Source: Synechococcus sp. CC9311 (GTDB lineage: Bacteria; Cyanobacteriota; Cyanobacteriia; PCC-6307; Cyanobiaceae). Taken from it: DNA of 64,000 bases. The notes below the pieces were generated by a model, which worked only from the letters and a program-made list of their open reading frames with translations, had not been told where the DNA came from and did not search any database. The stretch lies in NCBI RefSeq assembly GCF_000014585.1, contig NC_008319.1, positions 1,178,001 through 1,242,000 of the forward strand. Direction: 5' to 3'. A program made the translations under genes and the position numbers. Below are positions 56,380 through 64,000 of this stretch, piece by piece (position 1 is the first letter of the stretch; every line of letters begins with the position of its first letter).

Positions 56380-59300
56380 ATGCATCGACTGAGCAGTCTT
56401 CCTGGCGCTGAAAGCAACGAGGATTTCACCGTTGTGGAGCAACCGCCGGCTCCCATTCTCTTTCTGACGAGCGCTGCGACCGACATCAGTACGCTCTCAG
56501 CCTGTCTTCATCAGCCAGAGCTGGGGCACTTGAAGGAGCAATTGCGTGCTTTGCCACTTGATTGTCTGCGTCATCCAGCTCAGATTGATCATTATTTGTC
56601 CATCACGGGTCGTACGGCTCGTGTGCTCGTGGTGCGCTTGTTGGGAGGGCGGGGCCACTGGAGCTACGGGCTTGAGCAGTGCCGTCGTTGGCAGTCGTCT
56701 GCTCAACATCGAACATTGATCGTCCTGGCCGGCACCGCGGATCAAAACGACGAACTCCATCCGATTGGATCGGTGTCATCCACGCTGTCTCAACAGCTCG
56801 CTCTGTTGCTGCGCGAAGGCGGGATACCCAACATGACCAAGGTTTTGAAGGCGATTCATCCCTTCATCACCCGGTGCAAGGACCCTGACCCCCTCAATGA
56901 CGACATCGATCTTCAGCCGGAACGGATGGCTGATCCAGCCCCGTTTGATTGGTGCGATGAACCTGGTGCGAAGGTCGGAGTCCTGCTGTATCGGGCTCAT
57001 GCCCGTGCCGCAGACACGGACTGGTGTTATCAACTTTTAACGGCGTTGCGCAACCGTGGATTAGCACCGCGTGCCCTCTGGGTGAGCAGTTTGAGAGATC
57101 CCGTGGTTCAAGAGGGGGTGCAACGAGCATTTCAAGCGCAGGATGTGCAGCTGGTCGTGAGCACCACGGCATTTGCATCTGTGCAGTTTCAAGAGGCGGG
57201 GCTTGGCACTCCGCTTTGGGATGGCCTTGATCTGCCTGTGTTGCAGCTGCTTTGCTCGGGACGATCCAAGCAGGCCTGGGACGCCAGTACCCAGGGGCTC
57301 GACCCCATTGATCTCTCCCTTCAAGTGGTGCTTCCTGAGTTGGATGGTCGCATCACCACAAGAATCGGTGCCTTCCGTGAAGTTCGGGATGCGGAATCCA
57401 GTTTGTCGACGGCAGTTAAAGGGTTGGTTCCCGACTCTGTTGGCCTGAATTGGCTGGCCGACCATGCCCGTGGTTGGGTGGATCTTCGTCAAACGGAATC
57501 AGCTGACAAGCGCGTGGCATTGGTGCTTGCGAATTACCCCGTTCGCAATGGACGTTTGGCCAATGGAGTTGGTCTGGACACACCTGCCAGCACCATCAAT
57601 ATTTTGAATTGGCTTGCTGAAGCAGGCGTTGATCTTGGCAGCCAGTCGCGTCCCGATGCGTCGCAGGCGCTGATGGCCCAACTGTTGTCGGGACGCAGCA
57701 ACGATCCAGAGAGTTTTCATCTTCAGCCGCTTGCCTATCTGCCTCTCAACCACTACTTGCGCTGGTGGAGAGAGCTCACACCTGTAGCTCGAGCTCTGAT
57801 TGAGCGCCGCTGGGGCTCCCCAGAACAGGCTGTGGATCTGGAGGAGAAGGGGTTTGCTGTCCATGGACTGCTGCTGGGTCATGTGGCCGTGTTGATTCAG
57901 CCCAGCCGCGGCTACGACCCCGATCAGATCAGTGATCTTCATTCGCCTGATCTTCCTCCCCCGCATCGTTATTTGGCCCAATATCTCTGGCTGCAGGAGG
58001 TGCATGGCACCCAGCTAATGGTCCATATGGGGAAACATGGCAGTGCCGAATGGTTACCAGGCAAGTCGGTTGGACTGAGTGACGCCTGTGGGCCAGGACT
58101 GGCGCTTGCTCCGATCCCTCACGTTTATCCGTTCATCGTTAATGATCCGGGGGAGGGATCCCAAGCCAAGCGTCGGGGACATGCTGTGATCCTTGACCAC
58201 CTCACTCCGCCCTTGGGTCGGGCTGGGTTGCACGGATCTTTGCTGTCTCTGGAAGCCTTGCTGGATGAGTATGTCGAGGCTCGTCAAGTTGCTGCTGAAC
58301 GCTGCGATGTGCTCGAGCAGCAAATCAAGCAGTTGCTTCAACACCTTGATTGGCCATCCTTCCCCAATTCATCAAACGATCCATCCAGCGCTGCTGATCA
58401 AGACAACGATTCTTGGGCCCGCTGCCTTGATCAGGTTGAGACCTATCTCTGTGAGTTGAAGGAGGCGCAAATCAGAACGGGCCTGCACCGTTTTGGCAGT
58501 CAGCCTGAGCGATCGATTCAAAGAGAACTCCTGCTGGCGATTGCGCGATCACCATCCGGTGGTTGCCAAGGCATCACTCAGGCGATGGCCAAGGTGGTTG
58601 GACTGGAATGCGACCCCTGGTCGGATGAAGATGGTGCCCGTCTAAGTGACCACGACTGCAGAATCCTCGAGCAGTTGGGTTGTGATCAGCCCCGACGTGT
58701 ATCGGCTGCTGTGAGTTGGCTCGATGGTCAAGCGCTTCGCTTACTGGAGCAGATCACAGACGAGCCCTCGGAACCGCTATGTCCAGCGTTGCAGCAGTGG
58801 CTCCACGACAAAAAGGAGCCTGCTTTGCTGCGCTTGCACGATGAGCTATTACCGCGATTGTTGGCTTGTGCCTCGAGTGAAAAGAAGGCCTTCCTTGCTG
58901 CTTTGTCTGGACGACGGATCGCGAGTGGACCTTCCGGAGCGCCAACGCGTGGTCGTCCAGATGTGTTGCCAACGGGTCGAAATTTCTATTCCGTTGACTT
59001 GCGTGGTCTTCCAACCGAAGCGGCCTGGGATTTAGGACGGCGTAGCGCTGAGCAATTGTTAGATCTCTACCGACTCGAGGAAGGAGAAGATCTGCGTCAC
59101 CTTGCCCTATCGGTGTGGGGAACAGCCACGATGCGAAACGGGGGTGAAGACATCGCACAGATGTTGGCTCTCCTTGGCGTTCGTCCTCTTTGGGATGGCC
59201 CAACCCGGCGAATGGTGGACCTTGAAGTGATTCCTTTGAGCCTGTTGGCTCGACCCCGGGTTGATGTCACCTTGCGGATGTCAGGACTGTTCCGCGATGC

Positions 59301-60144
59301 CTTCCCGCAGCTTGTGGGTTGGGTGAATCGCGCTGTGCAACTCGTCTCAACACTCGATGAAACAGACGATGAGAATCCGCTTGCCTCGATCACCCGCCAG
59401 GAAGGTCCTCAAGCCAGGATTTTTGGTTCTGCACCGGGTGCATATGGCGCCGGATTGCAGGCCTTGATCGATTCGGGTCAATGGGAGCACCAGGAACAAC
59501 TTGGCGAGGCGTTTTTAGCCTGGAGTTCCTGGAGTTACGACGGCGATGTTCAAGCTCGTGCCAATCGCAAAGGGTTAGAAGGTGCTCTGCGGTACGTGCA
59601 GGTTGTCCTCCATAACCAAGACAATCGTGAGCACGATTTACTCGATTCTGATGACTACTACCAGTTTCATGGAGGGATGACCGCAGCGGTGCGTCGCTCT
59701 GGAGGGACCAGCGTGCAGCCCTGGTTTGCAGATCATTCTCGCCAGCAACGACTTCGCATTCATTCGCTCAGCCGTGAAATCGACAAGGTGGTGAGAAGCC
59801 GTTTATTGAACCCACGCTGGATCCAAGGAATGCAACAGCATGGCTACAAAGGAGCGTTCGAAATGGGCGCCAGCCTCGATTATCTGTTTGCCTACGACGC
59901 TTCAACTGAAGCAGTTCCAGATTGGTGCTACGGGGCCATCTGCGATCAGTGGCTGCTCGAAGAGAGCACTCAAGAGTTTTTAAGGAGGTCTAACCCGTGG
60001 GTTCTCAGAGATATGGCCGAACGCCTTTTGGAAGCTGCAAATCGAGGATTGTGGTCACAACCTTCCCCCGATCAGCTTGAGCAGATCAGGGGATTGGTTC
60101 TTCAAGCTGAGGAGGCTGTCGAGAAAGGAGGCCTCAGCTGTTGA
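56380..60144 (+). CDS. cobN: Cobaltochelatase subunit CobN
   Basis: 1254 residues, CobN/BchH family; length and motifs fit CobN better than the longer ChlH. Typical blocks: HMGKHGSAEWLPGKSVGLSDACGP, GRNFYSVDLRGLPTEAAWDLG, RVDVTLRMSGLFRDAFPQLVGWVNRAVQLV and ARIFGSAPGAYGAGL. It inserts cobalt into the corrin ring in the aerobic pathway. Cyanobacteria usually have no CobST and are thought to use ChlI/ChlD-type AAA partners, not in this window. The start ATG 56380 has GGAG 3 bases upstream. The last 11 bases overlap the next minus-strand gene. Confidence 0.93.
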   Translation: MHRLSSLPGAESNEDFTVVEQPPAPILFLTSAATDISTLSACLHQPELGHLKEQLRALPLDCLRHPAQIDHYLSITGRTARVLVVRLLGGRGHWSYGLEQCRRWQSSAQHRTLIVLAGTADQNDELHPIGSVSSTLSQQLALLLREGGIPNMTKVLKAIHPFITRCKDPDPLNDDIDLQPERMADPAPFDWCDEPGAKVGVLLYRAHARAADTDWCYQLLTALRNRGLAPRALWVSSLRDPVVQEGVQRAFQAQDVQLVVSTTAFASVQFQEAGLGTPLWDGLDLPVLQLLCSGRSKQAWDASTQGLDPIDLSLQVVLPELDGRITTRIGAFREVRDAESSLSTAVKGLVPDSVGLNWLADHARGWVDLRQTESADKRVALVLANYPVRNGRLANGVGLDTPASTINILNWLAEAGVDLGSQSRPDASQALMAQLLSGRSNDPESFHLQPLAYLPLNHYLRWWRELTPVARALIERRWGSPEQAVDLEEKGFAVHGLLLGHVAVLIQPSRGYDPDQISDLHSPDLPPPHRYLAQYLWLQEVHGTQLMVHMGKHGSAEWLPGKSVGLSDACGPGLALAPIPHVYPFIVNDPGEGSQAKRRGHAVILDHLTPPLGRAGLHGSLLSLEALLDEYVEARQVAAERCDVLEQQIKQLLQHLDWPSFPNSSNDPSSAADQDNDSWARCLDQVETYLCELKEAQIRTGLHRFGSQPERSIQRELLLAIARSPSGGCQGITQAMAKVVGLECDPWSDEDGARLSDHDCRILEQLGCDQPRRVSAAVSWLDGQALRLLEQITDEPSEPLCPALQQWLHDKKEPALLRLHDELLPRLLACASSEKKAFLAALSGRRIASGPSGAPTRGRPDVLPTGRNFYSVDLRGLPTEAAWDLGRRSAEQLLDLYRLEEGEDLRHLALSVWGTATMRNGGEDIAQMLALLGVRPLWDGPTRRMVDLEVIPLSLLARPRVDVTLRMSGLFRDAFPQLVGWVNRAVQLVSTLDETDDENPLASITRQEGPQARIFGSAPGAYGAGLQALIDSGQWEHQEQLGEAFLAWSSWSYDGDVQARANRKGLEGALRYVQVVLHNQDNREHDLLDSDDYYQFHGGMTAAVRRSGGTSVQPWFADHSRQQRLRIHSLSREIDKVVRSRLLNPRWIQGMQQHGYKGAFEMGASLDYLFAYDASTEAVPDWCYGAICDQWLLEESTQEFLRRSNPWVLRDMAERLLEAANRGLWSQPSPDQLEQIRGLVLQAEEAVEKGGLSC

Positions 60145-60739: not shown

Positions 60740-61396
60740 TTAGCGGCCTTTTAGGTCTATTCCGTGGGTATCGGTGCCGCAAGTACGCAAAAGGCCAAGG
60801 TTTTTTAACTGTTTGTCGATCGATTCGCAGATCAATGGCGTGGGTGCCCAGAGTTGTTGCATGTCGTAGTCGTACCAGGCTTCACCACCATCGAAACCGA
60901 GCTCAGCGGCTGCATCAATCAAATCTGAGAACCCCAATCTGTAGCGACCTGGATGGGCAAGAATTGCAATCCCACCCGCTTCATGAATGGCTTTGCGGAC
61001 CTCTCCGGCCCTCAGAGGTGCACCAACCGCAGCATCGCCGCTGGAGTAAGGCAACAAAGCGGTATGTCCTGGAGTGAAGCCCAGAGCTAAGACGTGGACC
61101 AAACAACCACGCAGGATGCAACTAATTTCCATCCCACTCCATAGGGTCGGGGTGCTCTCGCCCCGATCCCGGGCCTGATTCAGCCAATCGACCATCGGTT
61201 TGTAGGCAGCGATCGAGTGGTGATCGGTCACCGCAATGTGAAGCAGTTTTCGGACAGTTGCTTGTTCAATCAGTGCGATGGGTTCCAGGCTTCCGTCGCT
61301 GCAAATGGTGTGGCAATGAAGATTGATGCGTTCTGGACAGCTCTCAGGTCCGACCGTGTTCAGAACAGCCCGCAGTGGGTGCTGGTCATGCGTCAC
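60740..61396 (-). CDS. PHP-domain phosphoesterase
   Basis: 218 residues from GTG 61396, overlapping hemJ by 11 bases; the longer frame would run through hemJ. PHP motifs: INLHCHTICSDGSL (HxHxxxSDG), AVTDHHSIAAY, GMEIS, LAHPGRYRL and CGTDTHG. This places it with the small PHP proteins near YciV/RnmA (nucleoside 3',5'-bisphosphate or 5' RNA phosphatases). The exact substrate is unknown. The metal ligands look complete. Confidence 0.88.
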   Translation of the reverse strand: MTHDQHPLRAVLNTVGPESCPERINLHCHTICSDGSLEPIALIEQATVRKLLHIAVTDHHSIAAYKPMVDWLNQARDRGESTPTLWSGMEISCILRGCLVHVLALGFTPGHTALLPYSSGDAAVGAPLRAGEVRKAIHEAGGIAILAHPGRYRLGFSDLIDAAAELGFDGGEAWYDYDMQQLWAPTPLICESIDKQLKNLGLLRTCGTDTHGIDLKGR

Positions 61397-61979
61397 TGGC
61401 TGACTCCTGCGCGAGCGCTGCTTCGCGCAGACGTCGCCAGCGGGCATAAAACTGAATGGTTCCGGCCATGAACACCACGAGTCCAACGGTTAACCAGGTT
61501 GCTGCTCCTGTGGGGAACTGGGTCTTGAAGACCACCAGCATCACCACGAGGACGAGCAACAGGGTTGGCAGCTCGTTGAGAGCACGGAGTTGCCTTCCGC
61601 TCCACTGGCAGACCCCAGCCTGCAGTTGCCCCATGAGTCGATAGCAGAACACGTGATAGGCCAGCAACAAGCCCACAAATCCGAGCTTTGCGTGCATCCA
61701 GCCTTGCTGCAGCCAGGACGGTTGCGTGATCAACAGACCTGCAGCCATCGTCACTGTGAGGATCAGTCCAGGTGTGGTGATGATGTTGGCCAGTCGCCTT
61801 TCCATAACGGCGTACTGGGCTTTGAAGGCTTCGCGAACAGGTGACGACTCCTCTTCCGCTTCAACGTGATAGATGAACAGTCGAACGAGATAAAACAGAC
61901 CCGCGAACCAGACCACCACGCCAACGATGTGAAGGGTCTTGAACCACAGGTAAGCCTCAGGAGGAAGCGTCAGTGTCAT
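61386..61979 (-). CDS. hemJ: Protoporphyrinogen IX oxidase HemJ
   Basis: 197 residues with four to five membrane helices. HemJ/UPF0093 signatures: KTLHIVGVVVWFAGLFYLVRLFIYHVEA (conserved His), HAKLGFVGLLLAYH (conserved His and Lys) and ARWRRLREA near the end. It oxidises protoporphyrinogen IX to protoporphyrin IX for heme and chlorophyll. Start ATG 61979. Its stop overlaps the PHP gene start. Confidence 0.9.
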   Translation of the reverse strand: MTLTLPPEAYLWFKTLHIVGVVVWFAGLFYLVRLFIYHVEAEEESSPVREAFKAQYAVMERRLANIITTPGLILTVTMAAGLLITQPSWLQQGWMHAKLGFVGLLLAYHVFCYRLMGQLQAGVCQWSGRQLRALNELPTLLLVLVVMLVVFKTQFPTGAATWLTVGLVVFMAGTIQFYARWRRLREAALAQESASDA

Positions 61980-62014: not shown

Positions 62015-63421
62015 CTAGCTGAGCGAGTCAAGAAACTGTTGCGCGTTGGAGTAATGCGTTTCCATCACGTCGGGTGCCATGCGATCAAGATTTCGAGTCA
62101 TCATCGCCAATCTTGGTTGTGAACGAAAAAAGTCTTCATGACGATGAATAAAACTCCAGAACAAGCCATCCCATATCCCACACCACTCTCCGGGTTTGTA
62201 GTCAGACATTTTGCGAACGTAATTTGATCCTGATAAGTAAGGTTTGCTCGTAAAGATTCCACCATCGGCAAACTGACTCATTCCATAAATATTGGGAACC
62301 ATGACCCAATCGTAAGCATCCACGAATAGTTCCATAAACCAGGTGTAGATGCGAGTGGGATGGAAACCACAAAGAAGCATTATGTTTCCGAGAAGCATCA
62401 AGCGCTCAATGTGATGACAATATCCAGTGTTGAGGGCGCGTTTAATTGCATCGTCAATAGGTGGAAGTCCTGTGGTCCCTTGGTAAAATGCATCTGGAAT
62501 AGGCCGATCATCAAAGTTCCAAAAATTGCTGTTGCGCATCGTTACTCCATGGCGCAGATACATAGCAGCCATGAATTCACGCCAACCAATGATTTGCCTC
62601 AGAAACCCTTCCAGAGAATTCAGGGGGATCTCACTCGTTTCTGCAACTGCGAGCGTTTGGTTGAGAACCTGCTGGGGAGTAAGCAGTCCGAGGTTGAGCA
62701 TCGGCGTTAAAACGCTATGCCACATCACGCGGTGCTTTGAGCTGATGGCATCTTCAAAGGTTCCGAAACCAGAAAGTCTCTGTTCCAAAAAGGTGTCAAG
62801 CCATTGTTTTGCTGATCGGTGATCAACGGGTAAATCAATCGATGGTTCTTCAGGAACATTGATTCCTTTGGGAAGTTTTTTACGGTTATCGGCGTCATAA
62901 CTCCAACGCCCACCGACAGGAGCTCCCTGATCATCGATCAAAACCCCTAAGCGCTTGCGCTGCATTTGATAGAAATTGGCCATCATTGGTTTGCGTCGGC
63001 CATTGAAATGTTCATCCATTACTTCGGTTGGTGTCAGTAACATCGGAGTGGGCAGAACATTGAGAACGCAATGGCGCCGTTCCAAGGTGTTTCTGACTCT
63101 TTTGCTTAATAAATCATCGATTGGATTCACCAAGTAAAATGTTTTATATCCAGAATCGACTAGTTGGTTGAGAAGATCTGATGTTTGCTGATTTTGCTTG
63201 GGTGTGAGTGTAAAAACGCTAAAACCTTTTAACTCAAGATGCTTTTGATAGGCAAGCATCGATTCTTGATGCAACTGGAGCTTGCGTGGGTGGATCGTGA
63301 GCGGCCATTGAGGATCACCTCCGAGGATCAAGCCGTCTGCAATCAAGGCGATGCTTCTGTTGTCACAAATTCCGGGATGGTGTTCGAAAAGCTGATGGGG
63401 AAAAACAAGCGTGATTTCCAT
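62015..63421 (-). CDS. Cryptochrome/photolyase-related protein, FeS-BCP family, lacking cluster cysteines
   Basis: 468 residues. The N-terminal alpha/beta antenna domain (LVFPHQLFEHHP) and C-terminal FAD domain (GYCHHIERLMLLGN, SGNYVRKMSDY-like, MVPNIYGMSQFADGG) are those of the prokaryotic (6-4) photolyase/CryB family. Members normally hold a [4Fe-4S] cluster with four Cys, three of them in MSDYCxxCx(n)CPF. Here that region reads MSDYKPGEWCGIWDGLFWSF, and the usual upstream ligand position in front of HHIERLM carries no cysteine. The cluster is therefore probably absent. FAD binding looks kept. Photorepair or light sensing are both possible. Confidence 0.85.
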   Translation of the reverse strand: MEITLVFPHQLFEHHPGICDNRSIALIADGLILGGDPQWPLTIHPRKLQLHQESMLAYQKHLELKGFSVFTLTPKQNQQTSDLLNQLVDSGYKTFYLVNPIDDLLSKRVRNTLERRHCVLNVLPTPMLLTPTEVMDEHFNGRRKPMMANFYQMQRKRLGVLIDDQGAPVGGRWSYDADNRKKLPKGINVPEEPSIDLPVDHRSAKQWLDTFLEQRLSGFGTFEDAISSKHRVMWHSVLTPMLNLGLLTPQQVLNQTLAVAETSEIPLNSLEGFLRQIIGWREFMAAMYLRHGVTMRNSNFWNFDDRPIPDAFYQGTTGLPPIDDAIKRALNTGYCHHIERLMLLGNIMLLCGFHPTRIYTWFMELFVDAYDWVMVPNIYGMSQFADGGIFTSKPYLSGSNYVRKMSDYKPGEWCGIWDGLFWSFIHRHEDFFRSQPRLAMMTRNLDRMAPDVMETHYSNAQQFLDSLS

Positions 63422-63427
63422 AACGTC

Positions 63428-63742
63428 TTATCCGGCTTCTCCCGCTAGTCGGCAGGCACGCCGTCCGAGCGCTGTGGCTGGGATGCGATCCACCAGTCCG
63501 CCTCGTGGGCTGAGCTGCTGGTTTCGGCAGTCCATCACGACACGCTCCCGATGCCCTTGTTGATCTTCCAGGCGCATGCGCAGTTGCCAGTGATTTTTAG
63601 CGCTGCGGGTGATCTCATCGGCGCACACCACACCCGTGCACAGGCCCGGTGCCGCCAAGGCACGATCAGGACTGATCAGAGAGATGGCGACTGCGATCAA
63701 AACAGTGAAGATCAGTTTTGTGGCTTGAAAGCAGCGTTTCAT
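63428..63742 (-). CDS. Secreted hypothetical protein
   Basis: 104 residues from ATG 63742, whose ATGA overlaps the uvrC stop. Signal peptide: basic start, hydrophobic LIFTVLIAVAISLIS, cleavage near DRALA-APG. The mature part is about 75 residues with four cysteines (LCTGVVCADE, MDCRNQ, RRACRL). These could form two disulfides in the periplasm. No family recognised. Confidence 0.65.
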   Translation of the reverse strand: MKRCFQATKLIFTVLIAVAISLISPDRALAAPGLCTGVVCADEITRSAKNHWQLRMRLEDQQGHRERVVMDCRNQQLSPRGGLVDRIPATALGRRACRLAGEAG

Positions 63743-64000
63743 GCCATGTCCTCACCTGCCATCGCCATATTGTCCTCATCCATTTCCTGTGGATGAAAAT
63801 AGGCACGGATCTGCTTCGCCAGCGAGAGACCAACTCCGGGGGCTTGATGCAGTTGGTCCACGCTGGCCAGCTGAATGGCGTCAATCGATTGAAAGTGGGC
63901 CAATAGATCACGCACGCGTTTAGGCCCTAACCCTGGAATGTCAGATAGCCGAGAGCGCTTCATCCGCTGGCCTCGCTGCTGTCGATGGAAGGTCACTGCG
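63739..64000 (-). CDS. uvrC: Excinuclease ABC subunit C, C-terminal end (runs off right edge)
   Basis: The frame enters from base 64000 as ...AVTFHRQQRGQRMKRSRLSDIPGLGPKRV and ends with a double helix-hairpin-helix (IPGLGPKRVRDLLAHF and APGVGLSLAKQIRAYF). This is the C-terminus of UvrC with the end of its RNase H-like nuclease domain (FHRQQR). UvrC makes the two incisions in nucleotide excision repair. The internal GTG at 63996 is not the true start; most of the gene lies outside. Confidence 0.92.
   Translation of the reverse strand, partial: AVTFHRQQRGQRMKRSRLSDIPGLGPKRVRDLLAHFQSIDAIQLASVDQLHQAPGVGLSLAKQIRAYFHPQEMDEDNMAMAGEDMA

Follow-up and report, generated by a model that had tools for sequence, protein, structure and literature searches.

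Results

The phr2 locus and its product

The window, a stretch of 64 000 nucleotides from Synechococcus sp. CC9311, carries on its reverse strand the 3′ end of uvrC (63739..64000), a gene that runs on outside the window and whose ORF, extended in locus L036, matched UvrC_RNaseH_dom with 163.5 bits. The same strand continues with a small ORF (63428..63742) that gave no Pfam match and was found beside both of the photolyase types described below, then with phr2 (62015..63421), and downstream of this with a hemJ-like gene (61386..61979; UPF0093, 159.7 bits), hemJ being the name that we take to belong to the UPF0093 family. A PHP-domain gene is next in the conserved order (60740..61486, reverse strand; PF02811, 24.6 bits, just below the cut-off of 26.4), which ends with a CobN/magnesium-chelatase gene on the forward strand (56380..60144; PF02514, 1130 bits).

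Gene phr2 starts with ATG and encodes 468 aa, identified by Pfam and structure as a cluster-free prokaryotic 6-4-type photolyase. Its N-terminal DPRP (antenna) domain spans residues 5–205 (62807..63409, reverse strand; PF04244, 131.8 bits, cut-off 22.1) and a FAD_binding_7 match covers residues 278–373 (62303..62590, reverse strand; PF03441, 31.6 bits, cut-off 27). The nearest solved relatives found by phmmer were Fe-S (6-4) photolyases (8ijy, 9hnk, 7ykn, 3zxs and 4dja), and in these alignments the C-terminal region of the window Phr2 was shorter where the relatives have CxxC...CPF.

A preliminary description of the gene had proposed a relative of the FeS-BCP photolyases that appears to have lost its Fe-S cluster, and the absence of the ligands was borne out. 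The C-terminal text quoted there, YKPGEWCGIWDG, is present in the window Phr2, and the upstream ligand cysteine is missing as described, the Cys1 column (PhrB C350) being occupied by Pro321 (62459..62461, reverse strand). A deletion of about 10 residues at Y408–G415 (YKPGEWCG; 62177..62200, reverse strand) takes out Cys2 and Cys3 (CxxC), leaving gaps in these two columns and Gly415 at the Cys4 column. No set of four shifted ligands was seen in the alignment; the protein has five cysteines in all (19, 118, 335, 351 and 414), each of them outside the ligand columns, with C414 one residue before the Cys4 column. Sequencing error is excluded, because eight other genomes of the genus gave full-length matches, at 79–91 % identity, whose ligand columns are likewise without Cys.

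The DPRP and FAD domains and a whole-length fold match place the protein among the prokaryotic (6-4) photolyases, as do H337, Y395, Y401, M381 and L341, which correspond to His366, Tyr424, Tyr430, Met410 and Leu370 of PhrB. With none of the four Cys ligands it was not filed as an FeS-BCP; the absent ligands and its separate branch assign it to the cluster-free subtype formed by PromaPL, subgroup M and Phr2 without the Cys. Both its sequence type and its locus identify the window gene as the marine Synechococcus Phr2.

The observation in the preliminary description was therefore correct and already known, and its doubt as to whether the variant had been described is answered, marine Synechococcus Phr2 being among the cases in print. 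According to the respective papers, the Cys are lacking in 7 % of 464 FeS-BCP members (Graf 2015, PMC4619345), in PromaPL and a 20-member subgroup M (NAR 2022, PMC9178010), and in every Synechococcus 5.1 member and three out of six Cyanobium (mBio 2022, PMC9426592); the last of these divides Phr2 into two subclades, one with the Cys, and a further paper allows that some family members may do without the cluster (PMC12082625). The window Phr2 resembles RS9916 Phr2, PromaPL and subgroup M in combining a PhrB-like N-terminal domain with the absence of ligands, and it resembles RS9916 phr2, as published, in its place beside uvrC, with the small ORF between the two in the window.

Ligand pattern among homologues

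The first alignment set the window protein against 119 homologues, taken from genomes of its genus, family and phylum. Of its 120 rows, 54 had Cys in all four ligand columns and 66, counting that of the window, had none, with no row in between. When named genomes were searched with an alignment (A1) of 19 cluster-free proteins as query, at least 590 confirmed relatives were returned, of which the best 80 were kept, and a viral scan with the same kind of query returned two; all four ligands were absent in 82/82 of these rows (the best 80 of at least 590 relatives from named genomes, and the two viral ones). Four phyla, those to which a Ruegeria, a Cellulophaga, a Verrucomicrobium and a Planctomycete belong, were sampled in addition, and the domain family was present in 38 of 200, 34 of 118, 20 of 145 and 24 of 149 genomes, respectively.

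Pooling gave 312 rows, from which 10 duplicates with identical last 300 residues were dropped. The 302 non-redundant rows comprised 137 with four ligands, 164 with none and one that was truncated, counts that are not to be read as frequencies or prevalence, since the query behind 82 loci was cluster-free and the remaining loci were taken from best or listed matches. No intermediate with one to three ligands was found among the 301 classed rows. One apparent intermediate, L308, was set aside, its sequence ending soon after Cys1.

The emptied cluster site

Among the 164 cluster-free rows the Cys1 column is Pro in 163 and the position of PhrB F456 is Trp in 161, and the motif W[CQ]xxWDxL[FY]W occurs in 143, against 0 of the 137 Fe-S rows. 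The column of C351 holds Cys in 155/164 cluster-free rows and in 2/137 Fe-S rows, in which Ala is commonest in our counts (85/137); that of C414 holds Cys in 127/164 and 0/137, with Ala in 119/137 Fe-S rows. These changed columns are read as repacking, in which the roof subdomain would be closed without the cluster by a loop about 10 residues shorter, by the proline at Cys1 and by the above motif. In PhrB, the Cys mutants are reported as not expressed or insoluble (PMC4619345), and the [4Fe-4S] cluster of that enzyme therefore seems to hold the fold.

The high Cys counts at the C351 and C414 columns, set against their near absence from the Fe-S rows, could also be taken to mean that Cys351 and Cys414, with their neighbours, hold zinc or a smaller cluster. 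We consider such a site extremely improbable, as the residue at the C414 column is Gln in 19 rows and one of Thr, Ala, Asn, Ser, Asp and Glu in another 17, and two Cys on their own would be insufficient for it; an alternative metal site was rejected on this lack of strict conservation.

Structure, repair residues and lesion specificity

An AlphaFold2 model of the window Phr2 (pLDDT 88.2, pTM 0.89) was compared with solved structures, and its ten best chains (Z 37.3–39.3) were all prokaryotic 6-4 photolyases or CryB, the next family in the ranking being represented by the Thermus photolyase at Z 26.6. The best match was SePhrB of Synechococcus elongatus (8ijy; Z 39.3, 2.4 Å over 453 residues, 29 % identity), a cyanobacterial 6-4 photolyase with 8-HDF that, unlike the window Phr2, bears the cluster; L078, which over the stretches compared closely matches SePhrB, sits in a separate cyanobacterial cluster-bearing clade. 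PhrB of Agrobacterium (4dja) and CryB of Rhodobacter (3zxs) share the whole-length fold (Z 38.0 and 37.9, respectively) and the key repair residues with the window Phr2, but they hold [4Fe-4S] on four Cys and are only 27–28 % identical to it.

PhrB numbering was mapped onto the rows through L076. On this numbering D179, R183, D254, H366, L370, M410, Y424 and Y430 are identical in 137/137 Fe-S and 164/164 cluster-free rows; D179 and D254 presumably correspond to the pair of Mg2+ aspartates reported by Ma 2019. The cluster-free rows retain W390 in 163 of 164 cases, and E403, near FAD N5, is Met in all of them. The outer electron-relay tryptophan, W342, is Tyr in 119/164, so that the reduction path of the cluster-free type may differ.

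The chemistry suggested by these residues is that of a (6-4) photolyase. FAD in its reduced state, excited either by blue light itself or via an antenna pigment, would give an electron to the (6-4) photoproduct; His337 (62411..62413, reverse strand), the equivalent of the (6-4)-repair histidine His366 and invariant in both types, would protonate the lesion, while Tyr395 (Tyr424) would bind it and Tyr401 (Tyr430) would help in repair. In PhrB itself, the substitutions H366A and Y424F are reported to abolish (6-4) repair, and L370 is described as not essential (PMC4619345).

A different specificity has been put forward in print, the authors of PMC9426592 inferring from the missing Cys that the enzyme 'is likely to act as a CPD photolyase', which would mend cyclobutane dimers instead of (6-4) photoproducts. 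In their experiments, disruption of phr2 in Synechococcus RS9916 lowered UV-B survival about 1000-fold, and RS9916 phr2 in E. coli raised survival nearly 10-fold in the light and not in the dark (PMC9426592). These published survival assays do not tell the two lesions apart. However, His366, Leu370, Met410, Tyr424 and Tyr430 are all among the residues invariant in the 164 cluster-free rows, and cluster-free PromaPL is named a prokaryotic 6-4 photolyase in PMC9178010, citing Ma 2019, so that CPD specificity appears unlikely. The kept (6-4)-repair residues argue against it for the window Phr2.

Linker and antenna pocket

The clade of the window protein comprises nine rows (the window and L037–L044), from nine of the 30 genomes of the genus with a match, and is set apart by two further changes. 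The interdomain linker between R180 and W207 (62804..62881, reverse strand) is 26 residues long in 9/9 of these rows, against 53 to 63 in the other measured cluster-free rows, with the exceptions of L045 (36) and L046 (39), and 52 to 61 in cluster-bearing rows. The column of PhrB Glu33, one of the six antenna sites reported as most conserved in FeS-BCPs (PMC9178010), is Glu in 136/137 Fe-S and 149/164 cluster-free rows; it is Ala in 9/9 rows of the clade, as Ala28 (63338..63340, reverse strand) in the window Phr2, and in one unrelated row, L168. In the cluster-free clade, P and H/N mostly stand where PhrB has the antenna residues G9 and D10.

The window's clade thus differs from published Phr2 relatives, with a linker of 26 residues as opposed to 53 or more and Ala for the antenna Glu33, and neither the short linker nor Glu33Ala was found in the available parts of the published Phr2 and PromaPL accounts. 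It is possible that the antenna of this clade is changed or lost. Faster evolution of the N-domain was considered and discarded, as the N/FAD divergence ratio, at 2.44 vs 2.18 among sisters, was little raised, and only the linker loss and Glu33Ala are therefore claimed for the clade.

Phylogenetic inference

Two trees were inferred. The quick tree was built from 156 rows after removal of the ligand columns and of the deletion; L308, rows below 430 aa and rows at least 68 % identical to another retained row of their type were left out, and up to five rows of interest were restored after filtering. The careful tree contained 71 rows and also left out L203, L206, L207 and L275. Presence or absence of the cluster required a single change on the 156-row tree, on a branch with SH-aLRT 100, and the same split had a support of 100/100 in the careful tree. 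The 156-row tree gives no root; the cluster has been argued to be the older state from its sharing with the primase PriL (PMC4619345).

The cluster-free side held Bacteroidota, Verrucomicrobiota, Planctomycetota, Balneolota, Myxococcota, one Ruegeria isolate and several cyanobacterial groups. Its genera include Chitinophaga and Mucilaginibacter, which are known from soil. Two contigs were not relied on: L133, labelled as a Rhodobacteraceae MAG and holding a Prochlorococcus-type copy, is probably mis-binned, and L162 (Microbacteriaceae MAG) may be. For DISPLACEMENT, 21 of the 24 cluster-bearing cyanobacterial rows of the quick tree formed one clade (SH-aLRT 100).

Within the cluster-free side the cyanobacterial rows did not hold together. 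A single clade of all 14 was rejected in the careful tree (p-AU 1.4e-09), as was a clade of marine Synechococcus, Prochlorococcus and a third picocyanobacterial type (p-AU 0.001), the groups for these AU tests having been named after sight of the quick tree. In the quick tree, in which 59 of 153 forks were open and 55 rows had an uneven letter make-up, marine Synechococcus joined four Verrucomicrobiota rows (support 97) and the Prochlorococcus-type rows stood elsewhere. The careful tree grouped five marine Synechococcus, three Prochlorococcus-type and four Verrucomicrobiota rows (100/98), with only 80/56 for the pairing of Synechococcus and Prochlorococcus. The label 'Prochlorococcus-type' denotes likeness to named loci such as L131–L150, and the Verrucomicrobiota rows are mostly MAG contigs.

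Gene order around both photolyase types

The gene order of the window was common to L327, L328 and L337. The last of these has the full order around a cluster-bearing phr2, its neighbours being 55–77 % identical to those of the window and phr2 only 32 %; across the shared locus, phr2 identity was 32–33 % while that of the neighbours was 55–79 %. Among the cluster-free loci of the genus, that of the window excluded, uvrC was in the flank in 29/29 and hemJ in 28/29. The cluster-bearing loci of the family (n=30) had uvrC in the flank in 25 cases and hemJ in 24; four had none of the neighbours of this gene order and one lacked uvrC only. Outside the family, a cluster-bearing phr2 precedes hemJ in G333.

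This shared position could be taken to mean that the cluster-bearing gene of cyanobacteria was passed down to marine Synechococcus, where it lost its ligands in place in the ocean to save iron, and the oceans are indeed iron-poor; the preliminary description had suggested an iron-saving change of this kind. Our data did not support it. The single, supported and deep change on the tree, with several phyla on its cluster-free side, speaks against a local loss, as does the grouping of the marine rows with Verrucomicrobiota in both trees (in the careful one together with the Prochlorococcus type). The drop in identity at phr2, between well-conserved neighbours, points the same way. Furthermore, the CC9311 genome keeps a second photolyase-family protein, a phr4-like FAD-domain protein (L004:1272–2226, reverse strand) with Cys in NLACMDG and in a CQEC...CPF arrangement (C...CxxC...CPF), and has thus not dropped cluster ligands in all photolyase relatives. 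Taken together, this makes a local, iron-saving loss very improbable.

The hemJ locus was examined in 20 genomes, of which 18 had a match. In ten genomes whose cluster-free gene lies elsewhere (G083, G243, G048, G081, G090, G102, G056, G110, G017 and G152), uvrC and hemJ were found together with no phr2 match between them, and in three of the ten the small ORF was still in that position. In G035 (L344), a cluster-type phr2 was present in the slot only as two fragments, which align with residues 53–81 and 510–607 of the L020 frame, the latter fragment being 86 % identical, and the cluster-free gene was on another contig. The cluster type occupied the slot in G024, and in G072 it followed uvrC and the small ORF, with hemJ about 15 kb further on. 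In G342, G391 and G525, hemJ was seen without uvrC or phr2 in a short flank. As a separate observation, the hemJ match of L352 (G017, a Prochlorococcus-type genome) contained one in-frame TAG.

The presence of both types in the same slot in different genera could also be explained if a cyanobacterial ancestor had carried the two side by side, with each lineage keeping one. G099 might be read in this way. Its small ORF and hemJ are some 20 kb apart, and the cluster-free gene, of the third type, is found between them, at about 5 kb from the former and 15 kb from the latter; with the slot so stretched, this gene is not clearly outside it. However, none of the loci examined held an intact pair in the slot, the rejection of one clade of all cyanobacterial cluster-free rows does not fit such a descent, and neither do the ten genomes in which uvrC and hemJ adjoin without phr2 and the cluster-free gene is elsewhere. 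We therefore regard ancient paralogues as quite improbable.

Relatives on mobile elements

Neither the window protein nor the L206 protein had a match in 50 697 phage records, and the 87 plasmid records with a match were all below 60 % identity. L206, an IMG/VR contig (IMGVR_UViG_3300006481_000154), has a cluster-free photolyase ORF at 504–2183 and, as neighbours, a PMSR gene, a phage exonuclease family (phrog_298) and a T4 gp59-type helicase loader, from which it appears that a T4-like phage carries a cluster-free photolyase. A very divergent cluster-free relative was seen on L207, an 83-kb viral contig (ORF 2863–4413), adjoining a fused DHFR-thymidylate synthase and a NUDIX gene.

Discussion

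Our study suggests that the window gene is not a decayed cyanobacterial cluster enzyme, but a member of one old cluster-free clade spread over several phyla. We think it likely that this (6-4)-type photolyase replaced a cluster-bearing gene in marine Synechococcus, which fits its grouping with Verrucomicrobiota at a locus occupied by the cluster-bearing gene in other picocyanobacteria. In the simplest account, the cluster-bearing gene would have been the original occupant of the position between uvrC and hemJ, where the incoming gene would have taken its place in marine Synechococcus; in other picocyanobacteria, the cluster-bearing gene would have been lost and the cluster-free gene would have settled elsewhere. 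We infer that marine picocyanobacteria received the cluster-free gene from a relative of the Verrucomicrobiota lineage.

Several observations weigh against this reading, among them that a clean swap at the slot would have exchanged genes of only about 33 % identity and that the Prochlorococcus-type rows shift position between the quick and the careful tree. With somewhat less confidence, we favour a fuller account in which the cluster-free type had one origin, the cluster-bearing enzyme was displaced at least twice in picocyanobacteria (once in place in marine Synechococcus, and once, in Prochlorococcus-type and other picocyanobacterial genomes, by a gene elsewhere, with an empty or decayed slot), and the window's clade later trimmed its linker and changed its antenna pocket, perhaps dropping the antenna pigment. 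Displacement in place was not found in the literature by full-text searches and searches of titles and starts of abstracts, and the main text of PMC9426592 contains no wording of horizontal or lateral transfer, replacement or acquisition.

In summary, the published phr2 mutants had already indicated that an enzyme of this family works in cells without the cluster. The present analysis adds a natural experiment, in which both types, with the same repair residues, occupy the same chromosomal slot in relatives, and it speaks against a local loss for iron saving in the ocean and against a CPD specificity inferred from the missing Cys. As removal of the cluster from PhrB leaves a poorly expressed or insoluble protein, such natural pairs offer a direct route to the role of the cluster. 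If repeated displacement is true, that role would be testable by nature's own swaps.
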